39,862 nt of DNA from a virus, in IMG/VR virus record IMGVR_UViG_3300048837_000139, positions 1 through 39,862 of that record. One strand, written 5' to 3'. Shown here one piece after another: positions 19,215 through 27,998 of the stretch (positions within the stretch are counted from its first letter, which is position 1; each line of letters opens with the position of its first letter). The notes below the pieces were generated by a model. The model saw only the letters and a list, made by a program, of their open reading frames with translations, did not search any database and was not told where the DNA came from. A program made the position numbers and the translations under genes.

Positions 19215-21404
19215 TCAGGCCAGTTTCTTCGCCAGGTCGGCGAAGGATTGTCGCTTCCGGGCCGCTCCGACAGGTTGGGTGTCCCCGTCATCCCTGCCGA
19301 AAACGAACTCGTTCGCGTTCCACTCGTCGGCCCAGATCGGCGGGTCGGAGAAATTCAGCCTCTCGGCGCCGAAATGCACGAATGGGACCATCTTCTCGAC
19401 CGGCCGGATGGCGATACCAATAGCATAGTAGGTCAGGTCGAACGCCTCGTTGCGCCGCTTCGCCGGGTTCTCCCACCCCTTGTCTGTGCGGATTTCGGTC
19501 GTCATCTGCTTGTAGAACCAGTCAGGCGATGTATCCGGGTAGCGGATCATTCCGCCCCGTACATCGTCGGCGTCTTCCTCGTTGACGCGCCGCGCGAGCA
19601 TCTGCGACACGCGGTCTTTCAACTTGTTCGAGTTCAGCAGGAGCACGGGAATATCGCCGCGGGCGATCGCGTGCTTGTCCTTCTTGTGGGAATCAGGCCA
19701 GGTCGTGCGCGCCGCCGGGGCGATCTTGCTCGGTTCACCCTTGAGCGGGATGAACCGTGTGTGCGAGCCATCGCCGATCTTGCGGAGGCGCCGCCAGTGG
19801 TTGTAGGCGTTCGCCGCTGCACCCTCGCCGCCGCCGGTGTCGTAGCCCACAGCCCGGATCCGCATCCGCCGCCCGGAACCGTCCGCGAGCGGATAGGATC
19901 GAGTCAGCAACTCGTCGAGCACTTCCCAGTCTTCGGCGTAGGCGAACGGGTCGATCGGAAGCCGGTCGTCGTTGCCGTCCCGGCGGTTCGACAGACGGAA
20001 TTTGAAGCCGTCGACAATGGCGAGGTCTCCGTTCGGCATGAAGCCGTTGATCTGAACCACGAAGCAGGTCTTCTGCACGTCGACGGTGGCGATCAGGAAG
20101 CGCACGTCGAATGGAACGACCGGCTCGCCGTCGATTTCCTCCCACGGCTCGGCCTTCTCCTTCAACTGCTCGGGGACACGCTCGGAGAGGCGGTGCGCCG
20201 GGATATAGAACCCGCCCTGGTCGGTCGTGATCGTCGTCCGCAGCGGGCCGTCGTCGCCTGTATCTTCGAGTGCCTTCTGCGCCCGCAGGTACTTGACGAC
20301 GAGTTCTCCCATCGGCTGATAGGCCGCCGCCGGTCCCTTCAACCAGAACGAGGCGATATCGGAGCGCGCGATCTGCATTCCAGGGATCGGTTCAAGACGA
20401 TCGTCATGCGTCAACCTGGCGCCATCCGGCACCCACCGGCCGCCGAGGTTCAGTTTCATCTTCTCGCCGGGTCGGATGATGCAGCCGTTATGCGGACAGA
20501 CCATCACGGTCGCTTCCTTGGCGAGAATCGGGTCGGTGTGGCCGCCCCAGTTCAGCAGCTTGAAATCCGGCTCGAACCACTCCGCGCAACTCGGGCACTT
20601 CCAGTAGAATCGCCGCTTGTCTCCGCGGTTGTAGAGTTCGAAAATTCCGCGGATCGGCGGCGCCTCGTGCGGCGTGGCGGGAACCCACTTCGGATCCATG
20701 ATCTCCTTGTGCGGATTCGGCGACGCCTCCGCCACCGTCATCCCGAACCGCCCCTTGGTCTGCGTCCGCTTCTGCGCCATGTCGAATGGCGTGCCTTCGC
20801 CGTCGACGAGATCGGGCATCCGCTCGTAGTCGATCAACCACACCTTGCCGACCGTGATGTTCGACAGGTTGTTGGCGGTCGGATAGGTTATCAGCAGGCG
20901 CATCCCCGACAGGAAGGTCTTGTCGAAGGTGTTGTCGTCCTCGCGGCGTGTGAGCTGGCGGCGCCTGACCTCGGGCGAGGCTTGCAGGAACCGTTCGAGG
21001 TCGCCGTTCGACCACTTCCGCGCGTTCTCCCGGTCCATCTGAACGAACATCATGTCCTCGGGATCGGTGATGACCGTGTGCGCGATCCAGCCGAGGCCGG
21101 CCACGGATTTGCCCGTCCGCGCGGGGCCGACGAAGACCATGCCTTGATGGTTGAGGTCGGTGAGCGTGTTCATAGGCTCGACGAGATAGGGCGTCTTGAG
21201 CGGGGACCAGGGCGTCGAGTTGCCGGTGCCGGAACCCATCCGCATGAATTTCGAGGCCGCCTCGGACACGCTCATGCGCACTGGCGGCACCATCTCGGAG
21301 AAGGCCGCCGATGCAATATGTTCAAGCGTCGGATAGCGGGCTTCCTTGACCAGTTCGCGAATGGTCGGAGGCCGCATCTGCTTTTTCGGCTTGGGGGGTT
21401 TCAT
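19215..21404 (-). CDS. Terminase large subunit (GpA family)
   Basis: A 729-residue protein; I start at ATG 21404, which overlaps the SLOG gene stop (ATGA). The open frame extends further upstream only because it shadows other genes. Motifs: Walker A G-P-A-R-T-G-K-S (93-100), a likely Walker B at V-W-L-I-D-Y-E-R-M, and a zinc-like pair C-P-S-C ... C-P-H-N-G-C (about 280-330). The nuclease-type segment F-L-I-A-T-V-D-V-Q is near residue 440. These are typical of lambda gpA-like terminases, which cut at cos sites and pump DNA. A cos-type packaging mode is therefore expected. Confidence 0.95.
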   Translation of the reverse strand: MKPPKPKKQMRPPTIRELVKEARYPTLEHIASAAFSEMVPPVRMSVSEAASKFMRMGSGTGNSTPWSPLKTPYLVEPMNTLTDLNHQGMVFVGPARTGKSVAGLGWIAHTVITDPEDMMFVQMDRENARKWSNGDLERFLQASPEVRRRQLTRREDDNTFDKTFLSGMRLLITYPTANNLSNITVGKVWLIDYERMPDLVDGEGTPFDMAQKRTQTKGRFGMTVAEASPNPHKEIMDPKWVPATPHEAPPIRGIFELYNRGDKRRFYWKCPSCAEWFEPDFKLLNWGGHTDPILAKEATVMVCPHNGCIIRPGEKMKLNLGGRWVPDGARLTHDDRLEPIPGMQIARSDIASFWLKGPAAAYQPMGELVVKYLRAQKALEDTGDDGPLRTTITTDQGGFYIPAHRLSERVPEQLKEKAEPWEEIDGEPVVPFDVRFLIATVDVQKTCFVVQINGFMPNGDLAIVDGFKFRLSNRRDGNDDRLPIDPFAYAEDWEVLDELLTRSYPLADGSGRRMRIRAVGYDTGGGEGAAANAYNHWRRLRKIGDGSHTRFIPLKGEPSKIAPAARTTWPDSHKKDKHAIARGDIPVLLLNSNKLKDRVSQMLARRVNEEDADDVRGGMIRYPDTSPDWFYKQMTTEIRTDKGWENPAKRRNEAFDLTYYAIGIAIRPVEKMVPFVHFGAERLNFSDPPIWADEWNANEFVFGRDDGDTQPVGAARKRQSFADLAKKLA

Positions 21405-21895
21405 CCCAAAAGGTCCATCAGTTCGGGTTGCCAGCGGACCCACAGGTTCGTGACAGGGACACCCTTCTTCCGCGCGTAGGTGATGCAGTTGTGCGTTCCG
21501 CCGAACGAACCGTCCCACAACGCGATCACCGTCTCGGCGTGGTCGACCATCCACTCGTTCCGCGTCTGCAAGGCGCGGACGGCCGGCGTGAATTCGTCGC
21601 ATACGACGACACGTCGGTCTGCGAAGGAAAGCAGCCGGTGGTAGCGTTCTTGCGCCTCGGTAGGCCAGCGTCGTTCCTGCCCCTCGAAGGGGACCGCCGC
21701 CGTGAACGGGATACCAAGAAGAATGCAACCGGCGGCGACGGCCTGATCCCACCCGAGGGCCATTCCGGTGATGACGTGATCGGGTGCCATGAGGCGCAGT
21801 TGTTCGGCGGCGAAGGCCCCGAGCGCCCGGCGCGCGGTGATCCCATGCCCGCCGACTTTCTCGGGGCGATGGCCGGTGACGGCGATGGTTTTCAT
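21401..21895 (-). CDS. SLOG-family (YspA/DUF1273-like) protein, 164 aa
   Basis: It starts M-K-T-I-A-V-T-G-H-R-P-E-K-V-G-G, the typical first strand and loop of SLOG Rossmann-like nucleotide-binding proteins. V-I-T-G-M-A-L-G-W-D (41-50), a strand ending P-F-E-G-Q-E and A-L-W-D-G-S-F-G-G-T follow. These proteins bind nucleotides or nucleotide-derived ligands; some cleave glycosidic bonds. It is sandwiched between small and large terminase genes with ATGA overlaps on both sides, so it is made with the packaging proteins. Its role is unknown. A counter-defence function is a speculation based on SLOG use in nucleotide signalling. The C-terminus is E-L-M-D-L-L-G. Confidence 0.8.
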   Translation of the reverse strand: MKTIAVTGHRPEKVGGHGITARRALGAFAAEQLRLMAPDHVITGMALGWDQAVAAGCILLGIPFTAAVPFEGQERRWPTEAQERYHRLLSFADRRVVVCDEFTPAVRALQTRNEWMVDHAETVIALWDGSFGGTHNCITYARKKGVPVTNLWVRWQPELMDLLG

Positions 21896-22524
21896 TCCGC
21901 CGCGTCCTCGATCGGCATCCCGCCACCGCTGTCCAGTTCTTCCTCGATCGTCCGAGACATGGACGCATCCGTCGACGAGACGGACGGCATGTCGACCAGC
22001 TTCTCGCGGATGCTGACCAGCAGTTCGTTGCTGGAATCGACAATGGAGTTGTACTGCTCGTTGGTGAGGTCTTCCTTGCCAGGAAGGTCTTCGACCCACA
22101 TGCGGACTTCTTCCTTGATCATCATTGCCACGCGGCCGAAGACCTGCATCACTTCGTCCGTGTGCCAGAGGTCGTTCGAGGCTCGCATGACGCGGTTCCG
22201 CTGGTGGGCCGAGTCCCAGAACATCTTGTTGACGTAGGGCGGCAGACTGGCGGCGTTCTTCGAGGCAAACCATTCCTCGATGTTCCCGCGCGGCTGCACG
22301 AGATAGGACATGGCTTCGAGGAAATCGTAGAGCGGCGTGTCGACGCCCTTGTGCTTCACCCATTCCTTCGCCGGGCAGCGCGAGAGACGGGCGCGAATCT
22401 GGTAGGGCTGCTTCCCGAGCACTTGCGCCAGGAAGGTGATCCCCACCGGCTTGCGGAACGAGCCGACATGGACAGGTTCCTCGGAGGCGCTGCCGCCAAG
22501 AAGATCGTCGAGGTCGTCGCTCAT
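21892..22524 (-). CDS. Terminase small subunit (DUF1441-like), 210 aa
   Basis: I start at ATG 22524, which overlaps the stop of the AlpA-like gene (ATGA). The first residues are acidic (MSDDLDDLLGG). A helical region with F-L-A-Q-V-L-G-K-Q-P-Y-Q-I-R-A-R-L (HTH-like, about 27-43) follows. Then come Y-V-N-K-M-F-W-D-S-A-H-Q-R-N-R-V-M-R-A-S-N-D-L-W and a coiled C-terminal half. This plan fits DUF1441-type proteins found before GpA-type terminases. It would recognise the packaging site and recruit the large subunit. The identification rests on synteny and pattern. Confidence 0.75.
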   Translation of the reverse strand: MSDDLDDLLGGSASEEPVHVGSFRKPVGITFLAQVLGKQPYQIRARLSRCPAKEWVKHKGVDTPLYDFLEAMSYLVQPRGNIEEWFASKNAASLPPYVNKMFWDSAHQRNRVMRASNDLWHTDEVMQVFGRVAMMIKEEVRMWVEDLPGKEDLTNEQYNSIVDSSNELLVSIREKLVDMPSVSSTDASMSRTIEEELDSGGGMPIEDAAE

Positions 22525-23339: not shown

Positions 23340-25616
23340 TTAAGCGGCCGTCATCCAGGCGATTGCTGCCGGATCGAGCGCAGCGGCAACCGTGCGCGAA
23401 TCGAGCGCGCGGACATGCCGGTCGATGCGGGCACCTATCCAGGTGACGACCGGGACCGCCCACGAGTTGCCGAGCTGCTTGTAGCGCGGCCCATCGGCGG
23501 CGATGTTGAAGATCGTCCCGTCGATCTCGCAGAACGACGGGTCGCCCGCTGCCATCGCCTCGCGCGCCTTTTTCTGATTCGCCTCAGAGACAGGTGTCGT
23601 CGGAACGGCGGTCCATCGGTCCAAAAAACCTTGCAGACGTTCCGCCTCAACAGGCATTAGTCGTCTGACCGACATAGATTCCCGTTGCGCATGACAAGTC
23701 TCGGATCGCCCCACCTGGTGAACCTCTGATAGTGCTTGGAACAGTAACCGAACGCCTTCTGACGCTTCCCGCAAACTTCGCAGAATATAGGAGTCCGATG
23801 TTCCTTGATGTGACAGGACCGACAAAGCCTCTCCAGGTTTTCCGGCGAGTTGTTTCGCCAATCCTCGTCCTTGTGATGTACGTCCGTCCGGGCCGTGCTC
23901 CCACACCTGACGCAGCAAGTCTCCGGGGACGCCTTGCGTGCATGATAATGCGCTGTCATCCAGCCTACGTCTGACTTTTTCGGTTTCGCTTCGAAGGCTT
24001 GCGCCATGCAGCCACGATCGCAATATTTCTGGCGACCGAAATGCAGCAAGGACAGCAATTCCCCATTCGACATACGCTTTCTGACCAACTGCCTGCCGCA
24101 ATGTTGACAAAAGCGAACTGGCGTCGGCTTGGTAGGCATCCCCATTTCTGACCTCAAAATAACCCGCAACCGTAGGCACCCCTCGGCCGGTCCCGTCCTC
24201 GGAGCAGCCCTTGCCGTTGTTCGCGGTATTCGGGGCGTGCGTCCGGTCGCCGGTGACGCAGACGGCGAGTTGCCCGCCGGCGTTCGGATGGGAGTCCTTG
24301 TGCCCCATCGCCCGCATCGTCGGTGCCAGTTCCTCGGTCGCGTCGGCCCCGTAGTCCTTCGACGAGAAGGCGATGGCGATGCTCGCCTGGCCGCTCGACG
24401 AACCGCACCCAAGGGCGTGCGACAGGTCCACGCTGGAAATCGGATCCTGCGTCGGGTGGAAGGCGATCGCGGGCGGATGCGTCCCCGATGCGAGCGGATG
24501 GCACGGGGCGCCAGGCTTCGGGTTGCTGTAGTTCGACGGGCTGGTGATCTGCGTCGTGTCGATCGGAATGGGTTGCAACACGGCCGGGAAGCGGTTCTTC
24601 TCGGGCATGGTCTGGCCCTTGTGGAGAACAGCGTCGAGCGTCTGGCTGACGGGCGAGCCGTCCCACCATTGCGGGTAGACCACGGCTTGCGGTTGGCCTC
24701 CCCCGGAAGGGCTTTGCTTTGTTAGCGTGAGGGCGACGTCTTCGGAGAACTTCGGGGTCTGCTCCGTCGTCAACCCAACAGCGCGTCCAGATCGTTCAGC
24801 GGGCACGTCGTGCCCGCTACAGGCTCCATCGGTTCCTGGGAAACCGCCGCCTGTAGAGCGCGCATCAAGAGTTCCGGCAGTTTCTTGCCACGCTTCTCGG
24901 CTCGGCGCAGAATCCCGGCGCACGCCTTCGAACTCAAGAAGTATTTCGACGGGATCGAACCCCTCACGAGCACTTGCGACAACGAACACACGCTCGCGTC
25001 GTTGGGCCAGGCCGAAATATTGGGCATCGAGGGACCGCCACGCGACTGTCCTTTGGGGTCCAACGACACAACCAGCGTCCGACCACCGATTCCCTGACGG
25101 CTCAAGTGGCACGTCTTCGCCGGCAAGTCCAGCAAGGAAGCAGCCGAAAGCATTGGTCTTGTCGCTGAGAAGTCCGGGGACGTTCTCGTAGAAAATGATG
25201 CAAGGCTCGTCGCCATTCTCTGCCCTCTTGAGGTCGATTTCGTTTGCGATCTCAACGAAGGTCAGGGTTAGGTTGCCGCGGGTGTCGTCGAGGCCACGGC
25301 GCAGCCCCGCCAAGCTGAAACTTTGGCACGGACACCCCCCGCAGAACACGTCCGGAGCCTCGGCTTCGCCCGTGCGCACGAGATCGGGCAACTTCGTCAT
25401 GTCGCCCCAGTTCGTGACGCGATCGCCCCAGCGCATCTTGGCGATGGCGGTCTCGGTCTTCGGAAGCGGGAAGCGTGGCGCCGTGGCCCCGAGGCGATGG
25501 GAAAGCACGTTCGCGGCGGCCACGTCGACTTCCGCGAGCCACGCAGGCTCCCAGCCGAGACCATGCCACGCGACGCTGGCAGCTTCGATGCCGCTGCAAA
25601 CCGATCCGAAACGCAA
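23340..25616 (-). CDS. DNA (cytosine-5) methyltransferase, Dcm type, with insertion
   Basis: A 758-residue frame beginning at TTG 25616 (no ATG available; GAGGG upstream). C5-methyltransferase motifs: I, F-G-S-V-C-S-G-I (3-10); IV, P-C-Q with catalytic C97; VI, E-N-V (144-146); VIII, Q-R-R-E-R (205-209); IX, R-R-L-M-P-V-E-A-E-R-L-Q-G-F; X, Q-L-G-N-S-W-A-V-P. It would methylate cytosine in phage DNA against host restriction. Between the target-recognition region and motif IX lies a stretch of about 160 codons with no methyltransferase character, which is the out-of-frame shadow of an HNH gene. A second ORF overlaps motif VIII. Whether the insertion leaves an active enzyme is unknown. Confidence 0.88.
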   Translation of the reverse strand: MRFGSVCSGIEAASVAWHGLGWEPAWLAEVDVAAANVLSHRLGATAPRFPLPKTETAIAKMRWGDRVTNWGDMTKLPDLVRTGEAEAPDVFCGGCPCQSFSLAGLRRGLDDTRGNLTLTFVEIANEIDLKRAENGDEPCIIFYENVPGLLSDKTNAFGCFLAGLAGEDVPLEPSGNRWSDAGCVVGPQRTVAWRSLDAQYFGLAQRRERVFVVASAREGFDPVEILLEFEGVRRDSAPSREAWQETAGTLDARSTGGGFPGTDGACSGHDVPAERSGRAVGLTTEQTPKFSEDVALTLTKQSPSGGGQPQAVVYPQWWDGSPVSQTLDAVLHKGQTMPEKNRFPAVLQPIPIDTTQITSPSNYSNPKPGAPCHPLASGTHPPAIAFHPTQDPISSVDLSHALGCGSSSGQASIAIAFSSKDYGADATEELAPTMRAMGHKDSHPNAGGQLAVCVTGDRTHAPNTANNGKGCSEDGTGRGVPTVAGYFEVRNGDAYQADASSLLSTLRQAVGQKAYVEWGIAVLAAFRSPEILRSWLHGASLRSETEKVRRRLDDSALSCTQGVPGDLLRQVWEHGPDGRTSQGRGLAKQLAGKPGEALSVLSHQGTSDSYILRSLREASEGVRLLFQALSEVHQVGRSETCHAQRESMSVRRLMPVEAERLQGFLDRWTAVPTTPVSEANQKKAREAMAAGDPSFCEIDGTIFNIAADGPRYKQLGNSWAVPVVTWIGARIDRHVRALDSRTVAAALDPAAIAWMTAA
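23657..24145 (-). CDS. HNH homing endonuclease overprinted in the methyltransferase gene
   Basis: A 162-residue protein starting at ATG 24145 (GAGG six nt upstream; a second ATG lies two codons later). It has C-Q-H-C ... C-D-R-G-C (about 12-48) and an HNH core C-C-V-R-C-G ... D-V-H-H-K-D-E-D-W then N-N-S-P-E-N-L-E-R-L-C-R-S-C-H. A third Cys pair C-E-V-C-G-K-R-Q-K-A-F-G-Y-C-S-K-H-Y follows. It is read in a different frame from the surrounding Dcm ORF. Its stop TAA lies inside the Dcm S-V-R-R-L-M-P codons. Local GC is lower than around it, a sign of transfer. It probably cuts uninserted Dcm genes of rival phages. Confidence 0.85.
   Translation of the reverse strand: MGMPTKPTPVRFCQHCGRQLVRKRMSNGELLSLLHFGRQKYCDRGCMAQAFEAKPKKSDVGWMTAHYHARKASPETCCVRCGSTARTDVHHKDEDWRNNSPENLERLCRSCHIKEHRTPIFCEVCGKRQKAFGYCSKHYQRFTRWGDPRLVMRNGNLCRSDD
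24770..25027 (-). CDS. Overlapping ORF in methyltransferase gene (ILRRAEKRGK protein), 85 aa
   Basis: In the +1 frame relative to the methyltransferase, ATG 25027 opens an 85-codon ORF. It starts MPNISAWPNDASVCSLSQVL and includes S-K-Y-F-L-S-S-K-A-C-A-G-I-L-R-R-A-E-K-R-G-K-K-L-P. It ends in C-P-L-N-D-L-D-A-L-L-G. I recognise the KYFLSxxACxGILRRAExRGKxLP pattern from short hypothetical proteins of other phages, so this frame looks selected rather than random. It covers Dcm motif VIII and the start of the target-recognition region. Function is unknown. Recognition is from memory of the pattern, not a search. Confidence 0.6.
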   Translation of the reverse strand: MPNISAWPNDASVCSLSQVLVRGSIPSKYFLSSKACAGILRRAEKRGKKLPELLMRALQAAVSQEPMEPVAGTTCPLNDLDALLG

Positions 25617-25645: not shown

Positions 25646-25975
25646 TTAGTGCAGAAACGTGAAAGAGTCCACGTTAAACGTGAAAGTCGAGTTCAGAAGC
25701 CGCCCGGTGCCGAGCGCAAGCCACGCTTCATCCTGCCCGGTGATCGCGGCAAGGGCACTCATTGCCTGCTTCCGCGGCAAGGTCTCACCATAGAGCCACT
25801 TGCGGACGGACTCCGGCGTGACCTGCACGTCAAACCGCTTGTCGAGTTGATCGACGATCCATTGCAGCCGACCGTAGTTCGGCGCCGGAACCAGAGGGTT
25901 GCTGTCGCAAGCCTGCCGGAACCTCTGCGCAAACTCAGGGTGGTGCACCTTCCCTTCCGCTTCGGTATTGAGCAT
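25646..25975 (-). CDS. Phage repressor-like HTH protein, 109 aa
   Basis: I start at ATG 25975 because GGGAGA stands 6 nt upstream; the frame also offers a GTG six codons earlier. Residues about 14-80 form a lambda-repressor-like HTH: F-A-Q-R-F-R-Q-A-C, then L-D-K-R-F-D-V-Q-V-T-P-E-S-V-R-K-W-L-Y-G-E-T-L-P as recognition region, then M-S-A-L-A-A-I. There is no C-terminal peptidase domain, so it is Cro-like in size. Two AAACGTGAAAG copies lie inside its last codons and could be its own binding sites. It is separated by about 80 bp from the helicase gene. Role as the main switch protein is inference. Confidence 0.75.
   Translation of the reverse strand: MLNTEAEGKVHHPEFAQRFRQACDSNPLVPAPNYGRLQWIVDQLDKRFDVQVTPESVRKWLYGETLPRKQAMSALAAITGQDEAWLALGTGRLLNSTFTFNVDSFTFLH
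25655..25686. promoter_or_regulatory. Two AAACGTGAAAG direct repeats with a 19-bp palindrome
   Basis: AAACGTGAAAG occurs at 25655-25665 and 25676-25686, exactly 21 bp apart (two helical turns). The second copy is the right arm of GTCCAC-GTTAAAC-GTGAAA (25667-25685), which has the same 7-nt spacing as the palindromes at 22726, 32455 and 35823. The repeats lie in the 3' end of the HTH gene and upstream of the methyltransferase. They are probably operators. Confidence 0.65.
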
Positions 25976-26053
25976 TTTGTCTCTCCCACCCACTCACTCA
26001 GGCTTGCATTTCAAACCCAAATTGAAATTAACGCGAATCGGTCGTCAAATCAA

Positions 26054-27478
26054 TTATACTTTAGTTACTGTTCGTTCGCGCCTCGCGAGCAACGCCAGGA
26101 TCATCTTCTCCTGCGACGCGCCATTCGCGGCAAGGTTCTCAAGAGCGATCTCGTCATAAGTACCTTCGGCGATGATCTGGTAGATGGCAACGATATCCTT
26201 CTGCCCAGGTCTCGGTAAGCGGGCGTTCGCTTGCTGGTAGAGTTCCAGGGAAAAGGTGAGGCCGAACCAGATGGCAAGGTGCCCGCCGTACTGAAGATTC
26301 AGACCGTGAGCGCACGAGGCCGGGTGTGCCACCAACTTCTTGATCCGGCCCGCGTTCCAGTCCTGAACGGCAGTCTTGCACTCGTTCAGCACAACGATAT
26401 CCGGGTGCCGCTTCCGAATCGCCTCAAGGTCGAACTTGAAGCCGTAGAAAATCAGCACCGGATCCCCTGCGGCCCGCTCGATCAACTCGTCAAGCGCGTC
26501 CAGTTTCTCGGTGTGAACCTCGACCGTGGAACCGTCTTCCCGATACATGCTGCCGTTGGCGAACTGCATCAGCTTGTTGGCAAGCACACCCTTCGAAACG
26601 GCCTCCACGTCGTAGGGTTCCGAATACAGTTCGCGCTCGAACTCCCGATAGTGCTCCATCACCTTCGACGGGAGTCTCACCCGCACCGGCACATACACCG
26701 GATCGGGAACGAGCTGCGGCGACGGGATCGTCACCATCAGGTCTTGGGACGCCGCCGTGATCTCGGCCTCGGCACCGGGCTTCGGCGTGATCTGGTGCGT
26801 GTAGCGGTTCACGTCGAACCAACGGTCGCGGAATGCGGTCTGGGTTCGTCCGAGGCGTTCGCCCTGGTCGAGAAGATAAATCTGCCCCCACAGGTCGCCG
26901 ATGCCGTTCGGCCGCGGCGTCCCGGTCAGGAGGTAGATGCGCGAAATCTTCCGCCTGGCGGCGGCGAGAACGCCGAAACGGGTCATGTTGCCGCCCTTGC
27001 GGATGCTGACGGTCCCGTCCTTCTTCTTGACCCTGGATCGCGTCGTGCGCTTCTTTCCCGCCTTGAACATCGACGACTCGTCGACGATCACGCAGTCCCA
27101 CGGCCAGCGGTCCACTCTCCCGATCTGCTTGGCGAGCCAAGGGAGAACGTCCTTGTTGACGATGGTGATTTCCACGTCCTGCCGCAGCGCCGCCTTTCGC
27201 TCCGCTTCGGTGCCGACGCAGACGGCGTAGGAGAGACAGTTCGTGTGCGCCCAGGTGCGGATTTCCTCGGGCCATGTCTCCTGCGCCACCAGTTTCGGGC
27301 CGATGATCAGGGCCTTCCGGATGGAGAACTCGTCGAATAGTCGGCGCAGCGTCGTGAGCGTGGCGCCGGTCTTGCCGGATCCCATCTTGGAGATGATGAG
27401 GCGGGCGTCGTGGCGCAGCATCTCATCGACGATCAACCGCTGCTGCTCGCGCAGCATGGATGCCGGTCGCAAGTTCAC
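26054..27478 (-). CDS. SNF2-like DEAD/DEAH-box helicase
   Basis: A 474-residue protein. I start at GTG 27478, which overlaps the VRR-NUC stop (GTGA); an ATG lies seven codons later. Helicase motifs: I, K-M-G-S-G-K-T-G (about 28-35); II, I-V-D-E-S-S-M-F (about 130-137); III, L-L-T-G-T-P-R-P-N-G (about 178-187); IV-V, V-L-I-F-Y-G-F-K; VI, Q-A-N-A-R-L-P-R-P-G-Q. In this phage type SNF2 helicases lie next to VRR-NUC and polymerase genes and act in replication or recombination. It uses ATP to translocate on duplex DNA. The gene ends 79 bp before the HTH gene. Confidence 0.92.
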   Translation of the reverse strand: MNLRPASMLREQQRLIVDEMLRHDARLIISKMGSGKTGATLTTLRRLFDEFSIRKALIIGPKLVAQETWPEEIRTWAHTNCLSYAVCVGTEAERKAALRQDVEITIVNKDVLPWLAKQIGRVDRWPWDCVIVDESSMFKAGKKRTTRSRVKKKDGTVSIRKGGNMTRFGVLAAARRKISRIYLLTGTPRPNGIGDLWGQIYLLDQGERLGRTQTAFRDRWFDVNRYTHQITPKPGAEAEITAASQDLMVTIPSPQLVPDPVYVPVRVRLPSKVMEHYREFERELYSEPYDVEAVSKGVLANKLMQFANGSMYREDGSTVEVHTEKLDALDELIERAAGDPVLIFYGFKFDLEAIRKRHPDIVVLNECKTAVQDWNAGRIKKLVAHPASCAHGLNLQYGGHLAIWFGLTFSLELYQQANARLPRPGQKDIVAIYQIIAEGTYDEIALENLAANGASQEKMILALLARRERTVTKV

Positions 27479-27780
27479 CGCCACGGCATGTAACTTCGCA
27501 GGTATTCGATCGCCTCGTCCGCGCGGTCGAATGTGGGCACCTTGACGCCGGCTTGCGCGAGACGTGCGTGCTCGCGGACCTGTGCGGCCGACCGTTCGCC
27601 TTTCGGACTCTTGAACTCGATCGGGAGCACGACACCGAAGCCGAAGAAGAAGTTGTCCGGGCACCCCCGGCGCCCGCGGTAACTCATCAGGCGCACCACC
27701 CAGCCGTGGTTCTCGGCCCAGGCAATCACCGCGTCCTCGACCGTAGACTCGCGGGTGCTCGTCATCTTGAACTCGCTCAC
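27475..27780 (-). CDS. VRR-NUC domain nuclease, 101 aa
   Basis: GTG 27780 overlaps the stop of the previous gene (GTGA); an ATG lies five codons later. The protein shows the VRR-NUC plan: E-x-x-V-E-D-A-V (12-19), R-G-R-R-G-C-P-D (catalytic D about 42), then V-L-P-I-E-F-K-S-P-K-G (E54-x-K56) and a Q-x-x-x-H-A-R-L helix. VRR-NUC proteins are PD-(D/E)XK endonucleases acting on branched DNA. It is coupled to the SNF2 helicase gene, a pairing common in phages. Function as a junction-processing nuclease is family-based. Confidence 0.92.
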   Translation of the reverse strand: MSEFKMTSTRESTVEDAVIAWAENHGWVVRLMSYRGRRGCPDNFFFGFGVVLPIEFKSPKGERSAAQVREHARLAQAGVKVPTFDRADEAIEYLRSYMPWR

Positions 27781-27998
27781 GCTTCACCCCCGAGCGGATC
27801 GAACAAATGGTGACGGCTCGTGCCGGCCCACCGTTCATGGCAGGACTTGTGCTCGACGATGTTGATATTCCGCATGTAGCGGTACTGCGGCCACGGGTAG
27901 GGCTTCGTCGCGTTGCCGAAAGTATGGCATCCGGCCCACGCCTCGACGCGATGACCGCAGCGGATGCAGACGCCTGCGTATCGGTTCGGATCACTCAT
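27777..27998 (-). CDS. Small Cys/His-rich protein, 73 aa
   Basis: I use ATG 27998, which overlaps the polymerase stop (ATGA); the frame also has an ATG five codons upstream. Visible features are Y-A-G-V-C-I-R-C-G-H-R-V near the N-terminus, a further C-H at about 28-29 and H-K-S-C-H-E near residue 50. Together these could bind one zinc ion. No known family is recognised. It is read between polymerase and VRR-NUC with overlaps on both sides, so it is part of the replication operon. It may be a DNA-binding accessory. Confidence 0.7.
   Translation of the reverse strand: MSDPNRYAGVCIRCGHRVEAWAGCHTFGNATKPYPWPQYRYMRNINIVEHKSCHERWAGTSRHHLFDPLGGEA

Follow-up and report, generated by a model that had tools for sequence, protein, structure and literature searches.

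We found that a phage gene for a Dcm-type C5 cytosine DNA methyltransferase contains a second gene on the same strand, in its +1 frame, and codon comparisons among its relatives show that each frame encodes a protein whose amino-acid sequence is kept by purifying selection. The hidden ORF is almost certainly a genuine nested coding gene, and the evidence on its start argues that it is very probably translated by independent initiation and not by frameshifting. The gene lies inside one of the very commonly annotated phage genes, for instance inside dmt in the model phage P1, and is itself annotated in almost no record. CRISPRi work indicates that P1 plaque formation does not require dmt (PMC10695390). 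To our knowledge, dsDNA phages rarely have long nested genes whose conservation extends over different host phyla; an overlap common to phages of Proteobacteria, Firmicutes, and Actinobacteria would make this an unusually ancient example of DNA shared by two proteins.

Extent and start of the nested gene

The window, that is, the whole stretch of 39,862 nt of viral DNA that was analyzed, comes from a tailed phage, as indicated by its ORFs for a GpA-type terminase large subunit (19215-22043, minus strand) and an SNF2-like helicase (26054-27994, minus strand). The features of the methyltransferase locus are the following:

23340-25616, minus strand: Dcm-type C5 cytosine DNA methyltransferase ORF (frame 0), 758 aa, TTG start
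24770-25216, minus strand: nested +1-frame gene, likely ATG at 25216-25214, stop at 24772-24770, 148 aa
25224-25227, minus strand: Shine-Dalgarno-like GAGG of the nested gene, read from the sequence, 7 nt upstream of the ATG at 25216
24836-24982, minus strand: conserved C-terminal three-helix domain of the nested protein (SLSQVLxxxxIPxKYFLSxKACAGILRRAEKRGKxLPxLLxxAL), AlphaFold2 pLDDT 86-97, strongest double constraint; profile match at 24824-25027, E = 9e-39
23657-24145, minus strand: HNH endonuclease, the other gene nested in the +1 frame of this Dcm ORF, ATG at 24145, 162 aa, GAGG 6 nt upstream

The main frame has the features of a C5 methyltransferase. PF00145 matches aa 1-216 (E = 2.9e-27), phrog_116 matches with E = 9.7e-68, and the catalytic motifs PCQ, ENV, QRRER (QRRxR), VRRLMPVEAERLQGF, and GNS are readable in the translation, with motifs IX and X present in the main frame and not in the nested small protein. 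An HTH-like regulator (25646-25993) is located immediately upstream of this ORF.

The initial annotation had described an 85-codon ORF at 24770-25027 in the +1 frame of the Dcm gene. This ORF is present, with 85 codons plus stop and the quoted KYFLS motif included, and reads MPNISAWPNDASVCSLSQVLVRGSIPSKYFLSSKACAGILRRAEKRGKKLPELL... Its length, on the contrary, had to be corrected to about 125-165 codons, as the ATG conserved in relatives lies far upstream of MPNIS. In the window, the +1 frame is open over 24773-25261, corresponding to 163 codons, and ends at 24770.

The conserved ATG of the relatives is found about 70 codons ahead of MPNIS and corresponds to Dcm codon 121. It is present in 64 of 72 loci, compared with 22.6 +/- 3.4 (maximum 32) after synonymous reshuffling of the Dcm codons, and it is preceded in 43 of 72 by a Shine-Dalgarno sequence of at least 4 bases (GGAG/GAGG-type), compared with 14.8 +/- 3.0; both counts are inflated by close Pseudomonas relatives, and the reshuffled null was built from the same sequences. 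The homologous codon of the window is ACG (25243-25241), and the next ATG is at 25216-25214. As the conserved ATG is replaced by ACG, the start of the window gene is a guess, with ATG 25216 being the likely one, supported by the GAGG and by the ATG and Shine-Dalgarno sequence of the relatives at nearly the same place. Translation of the nested gene would begin inside the methyltransferase gene, from an internal ATG served by a separate Shine-Dalgarno sequence.

Both frames are under purifying selection

We aligned the codons of 79 Dcm loci, of which 72 were kept after removal of near-identical sequences, giving 34 disjoint pairs that are still related to one another. Third-position differences per codon amounted to about 0.3-0.45 up to codon 120, dropped to 0.04-0.12 across the nested domain, and increased to about 0.4-0.5 past the nested stop. 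Accordingly, the ratio of observed to expected Dcm-synonymous changes was 0.99 upstream of the hidden start (codons 0-118), decreased to 0.62 at codons 118-170 (z = -11.5), 0.37 at codons 170-193 (z = -12.6), and 0.18 at codons 193-242, which encode the conserved nested domain (z = -25), and was back to 1.01 after the hidden stop (codons 245-281). The synonymous constraint on Dcm thus starts at the relatives' conserved ATG and stops at the nested stop.

Changes were then sorted by their effect in both frames, the first letter referring to Dcm and the second to the nested frame, with S or s meaning silent. Rates per site in the control were 0.472 for Sn, 0.124 for Ns, 0.103 for Nn, and 0.414 for Ss, and over the nested domain they were 0.082, 0.149, 0.045, and 0.574, respectively. 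Sn and Ns are both low over the domain; therefore, both proteins are constrained. This pattern was replicated in Firmicutes-type phages (18 pairs), enterobacterial phages and coliphages (24 pairs), and aquatic phages (31 pairs), and a P1-like set went in the same direction with few changes. The initial proposal of selection on both reading frames of this DNA is consequently borne out, with Sn falling from 0.472 to 0.082 beside an Ns of 0.149 and an Ss of 0.574 and with three further phage sets repeating the result; the third-position variation, which could have fitted the Dcm frame alone, does not.

Low third-position variation by itself would also fit a constraint acting on RNA or DNA, such as mRNA structure, a packaging or recombination signal, or a homing target, with no second protein involved. 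We rejected such a signal, which we consider highly improbable, because doubly synonymous changes are not reduced over the nested domain, Ss being at or above the control (0.574 versus 0.414); moreover, Ns exceeds Sn there, the same amino-acid pattern is found in AT-rich through GC-rich phages, and the constraint stops at the hidden stop. It could also be argued that over the nested stretch the hidden frame alone matters and the Dcm frame need only stay free of stops, as Ns (0.206) is higher than Sn (0.091) at Dcm codons 215-242, corresponding to the second half of the nested domain. However, over the whole domain Ns (0.149) is well under Ss (0.574), and over motif VIII it drops to 0.040, so that Dcm is constrained too; the overlap with the HNH gene, by contrast, does look like a case in which only the nested frame matters (0.62 versus 0.90). 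We regard dominance of the hidden frame alone as quite unlikely, and both frames being constrained as proteins is the reading that we keep.

Distribution of the nested domain

We searched 50,697 phage records by tblastn using the 161-aa +1-frame reading of the window, and 149 of them matched the nested frame. Within the aligned portion, identity reached about 60-65% for phages of Vibrio, Pseudomonas, Enterobacter, and Morganella; matches extended to P1 (dmt) and to Caulobacter, Mycobacterium, and Streptococcus phages. Homologues of the 85-aa frame are therefore not confined to close relatives but occur in phages of many host phyla. The consensus of the nested frame is MPNISxWPNDAxVCSLSQVLExxSIPxKYYLSxKACAGILRRAEKRxxxLPxLLxxAL, and the amino-acid pattern is kept across AT-rich to GC-rich phages. 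These comparisons confirmed that conservation of the nested amino-acid sequence in very distant phages is greater than expected by chance and than the Dcm frame accounts for.

We compared the match with annotated CDSs in 20 records, and in 18 it lay in the exact +1 frame of a gene annotated at the Dcm/methyltransferase position. One of the two exceptions, the MA12 record, has no annotation at the match. The other is Mycobacterium phage Thibault, where Dcm is interrupted by an HNH gene and, for this reason, the nested frame itself has a separate gene annotation (gp104, hypothetical). In this locus (L096, 644-2445, gp102-gp105), the split is near motif VIII with the nested frame downstream, and the HNH interruption is possibly an intron or a homing insertion.

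The nested domain was present in 227 loci, and 211 of these overlap Dcm motif VIII as recognized by pattern; several of the 17 other loci overlap a variant motif VIII missed by the pattern, and the remainder are contig ends, insertions, and frameshifts. We also carried out an unbiased search using the Dcm portion upstream of the overlap as query. This gave 160 loci, of which 156 had a recognizable motif VIII, and all of these 156 scored genes carried the nested domain. About 600 bacterial genomes of two phyla yielded 20 with a match, and every full-length match overlapped Dcm. No convincing stand-alone copy of the domain was found among the 227 loci, viral contigs, prophages, and these bacterial genomes; the non-overlapping cases of the stand-alone search were contig ends, insertions, frameshifted copies, and in-frame canonical Dcms, and the clean full-length matches were all on motif VIII. 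The searches thus show the nested gene in every scored member of this phage Dcm subfamily and not convincingly elsewhere.

The initial annotation had recognized in the ORF a pattern of small phage proteins. This does not hold, as no known free-standing family corresponds to it and essentially all copies are inside Dcm genes. Pfam, NCBIfam, and PADLOC contained no significant model for the nested protein. The only family with any similarity, phrog_16143 (139 aa, "DNA methyltransferase"), gives weak matches to the nested frame in certain phages (Mycobacterium phage NihilNomen, E = 1.6e-7), so that a few nested-frame ORFs may belong to it; the match is below significance for the window protein (E = 0.26), and the family description says nothing of an overlap. 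A search of the literature accessible outside subscription found no earlier description of the nested gene or of its overlap with Dcm.

Some loci have other arrangements. L549, L551, L552, and L554 belong to a different Dcm subfamily (GVPQSRRRLF...KALIPLVGRKQGYRV type) and have a shorter, diverged nested domain in the +1 frame; they are possible evolutionary intermediates. In addition, L224 (274-936) has Dcm motif VIII and a nested KYYLS domain in one frame, a fused reading that is apparently due to a frameshift or an assembly error.

Likeness to methyltransferases and possible role

AlphaFold2 applied to the 161-aa reading predicted three helices at residues 92-98, 109-122, and 128-140 (pLDDT 86-97), with low confidence at the N-terminus, giving a small, basic, helical C-terminal domain. 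A sequence search of the PDB with the nested protein returned nothing significant, and the best Foldseek match of the domain model in the PDB was not significant either (E = 5.7). Against viral models, Foldseek gave two marginal matches, one to a phage methyltransferase (E = 3.1e-3) and the other to Thibault gp104 (E = 5.9e-3).

We compared the nested profile with 36 canonical Dcms, and the best alignment was with the segment just past motif VIII (E = 7e-4, compared with 0.39 for the reversed profile). When the three closest enzymes were removed, the same position was found with a weak E of 0.021, the best of 100 column shuffles being 0.028. In-frame scans of canonical Dcms gave weak matches in 5 of 35 enzymes versus 3 of 700 shuffles, and in 4 of 18 versus 1 of 360 in a second scan. 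Moreover, one bacterial Dcm (L553, PLKKVLEKHVPEKYYFSAKAVQGML), picked by similarity, is matched in frame by the profile (E = 1.5e-6 per genome; hhalign E = 2e-8). The nested domain is thus likely, although not securely, homologous to the canonical post-motif-VIII segment (LxDILExxVDxKYxLS... in PF00145 enzymes), which it resembles by profile similarity at the matching region. In ordinary C5 methyltransferases, this segment is in frame, about 28-48 residues past motif VIII, while the nested domain is read in the +1 frame and extends over motif VIII; a simple frameshift therefore fails to explain the layout.

We tentatively favor a methyltransferase-linked role for the nested protein. It would serve as a small accessory subunit of the enzyme in whose gene it is encoded, a possibility to which we give slightly less than even weight. 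The nested helical domain resembles the canonical segment just past motif VIII, where the small DNA-recognizing domain begins. In addition, in the predicted structure of the main-frame Dcm of a relative (L016), residues 210-413 have pLDDT below 50 and are predicted to be disordered, with residues 1-209 and 420-485 mostly of high confidence, although the low values between motifs VIII and IX may be due simply to the alignment of 43 sequences being hypervariable and gappy there. Together, the domain match and this predicted disorder suggest that the two products of one gene could pair as a naturally split enzyme, in which the nested protein would supply or modulate DNA recognition. Taken further, a large class of phage cytosine methyltransferases would be divided over two frames, with a catalytic body and a separately started +1 small subunit providing the missing start of the DNA-recognition domain, one gene encoding both halves; we consider this general scheme speculative and rather doubtful. 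If the nested protein is a subunit, phage Dcm proteins purified or cloned without it would have been tested incomplete.

C5 cytosine methyltransferases made of two polypeptides, one large and one small, are known, as described for M.AquI and M.EcoHK31I (PMC3404938). M.AquI is split in the variable region after motif VIII, that is, in the region matched by the nested domain; its small polypeptide has the distal variable region and motifs IX-X, and that of M.EcoHK31I bears motif IX. Here, by comparison, the small protein corresponds to a post-VIII-like segment only, lies entirely inside the main gene, in its +1 frame, and occurs in phages of numerous hosts, and because motif IX is absent from it, the nested gene is not a member of these arrangements. 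Overprinted genes of the phiX174 type are likewise same-strand, out-of-frame, and inside another coding gene, with their own start and stop; here, the host gene is the methyltransferase of dsDNA tailed phages and the pair is common to phages of Proteobacteria, Firmicutes, and Actinobacteria. The genes of EcoHK31I also overlap out of frame.

Two other readings bear on the function and on the way the protein is made. If ribosomes were programmed to shift by +1 out of the Dcm frame, the product would be a truncated methyltransferase ending in the helical domain. In agreement with this, the offset is exactly +1, the likeness of the domain to the canonical post-motif-VIII segment means that a switch near motif VIII would give a canonical-looking order, and one contig (L224) has the fused reading. 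On the contrary, the constraint and the ATG with its Shine-Dalgarno sequence start about 70 codons before the domain, which would be needless for a switch near motif VIII and disfavors frameshifting; moreover, as the domain lies on motif VIII, an earlier switch would lose this motif, and the product would stop short of motifs IX-X. An unsystematic look showed no shared slippery site. We consider frameshifting unlikely. Alternatively, the nested gene could be real but serve some purpose other than methylation, for example counteracting restriction, inhibiting a host factor, or binding DNA, and it would then stay in place only since a gene overlapped in this way cannot easily leave. Nested genes are often functionally unrelated to their host gene, as for phiX174 E, and here the domain is small, basic, and helical and the main frame retains all catalytic motifs. 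However, the nested gene is found only with this Dcm subfamily, in every scored member, and its domain resembles a methyltransferase segment; an unrelated task is therefore a real possibility that we do not favor. Considering the sequence evidence as a whole, it is probable that the nested gene is coding and has its own internal initiation, with the partner role as the leading candidate function.

The same Dcm ORF of the window contains the second nested gene, encoding the HNH endonuclease (PF01844 above cut-off; phrog_1271, E = 4e-10). Among related HNH genes, 66 of 67 are nested likewise in an open Dcm-frame ORF. Two-frame rates in this overlap were 0.623 for Ns, 0.212 for Sn, 0.177 for Nn, and 0.904 for Ss; the HNH frame dominates selection here, and the Dcm frame is therefore weakly constrained. 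In another locus (L223, 2703-3943), two nested-type HNH domains are found in tandem across broken Dcm-like frames.
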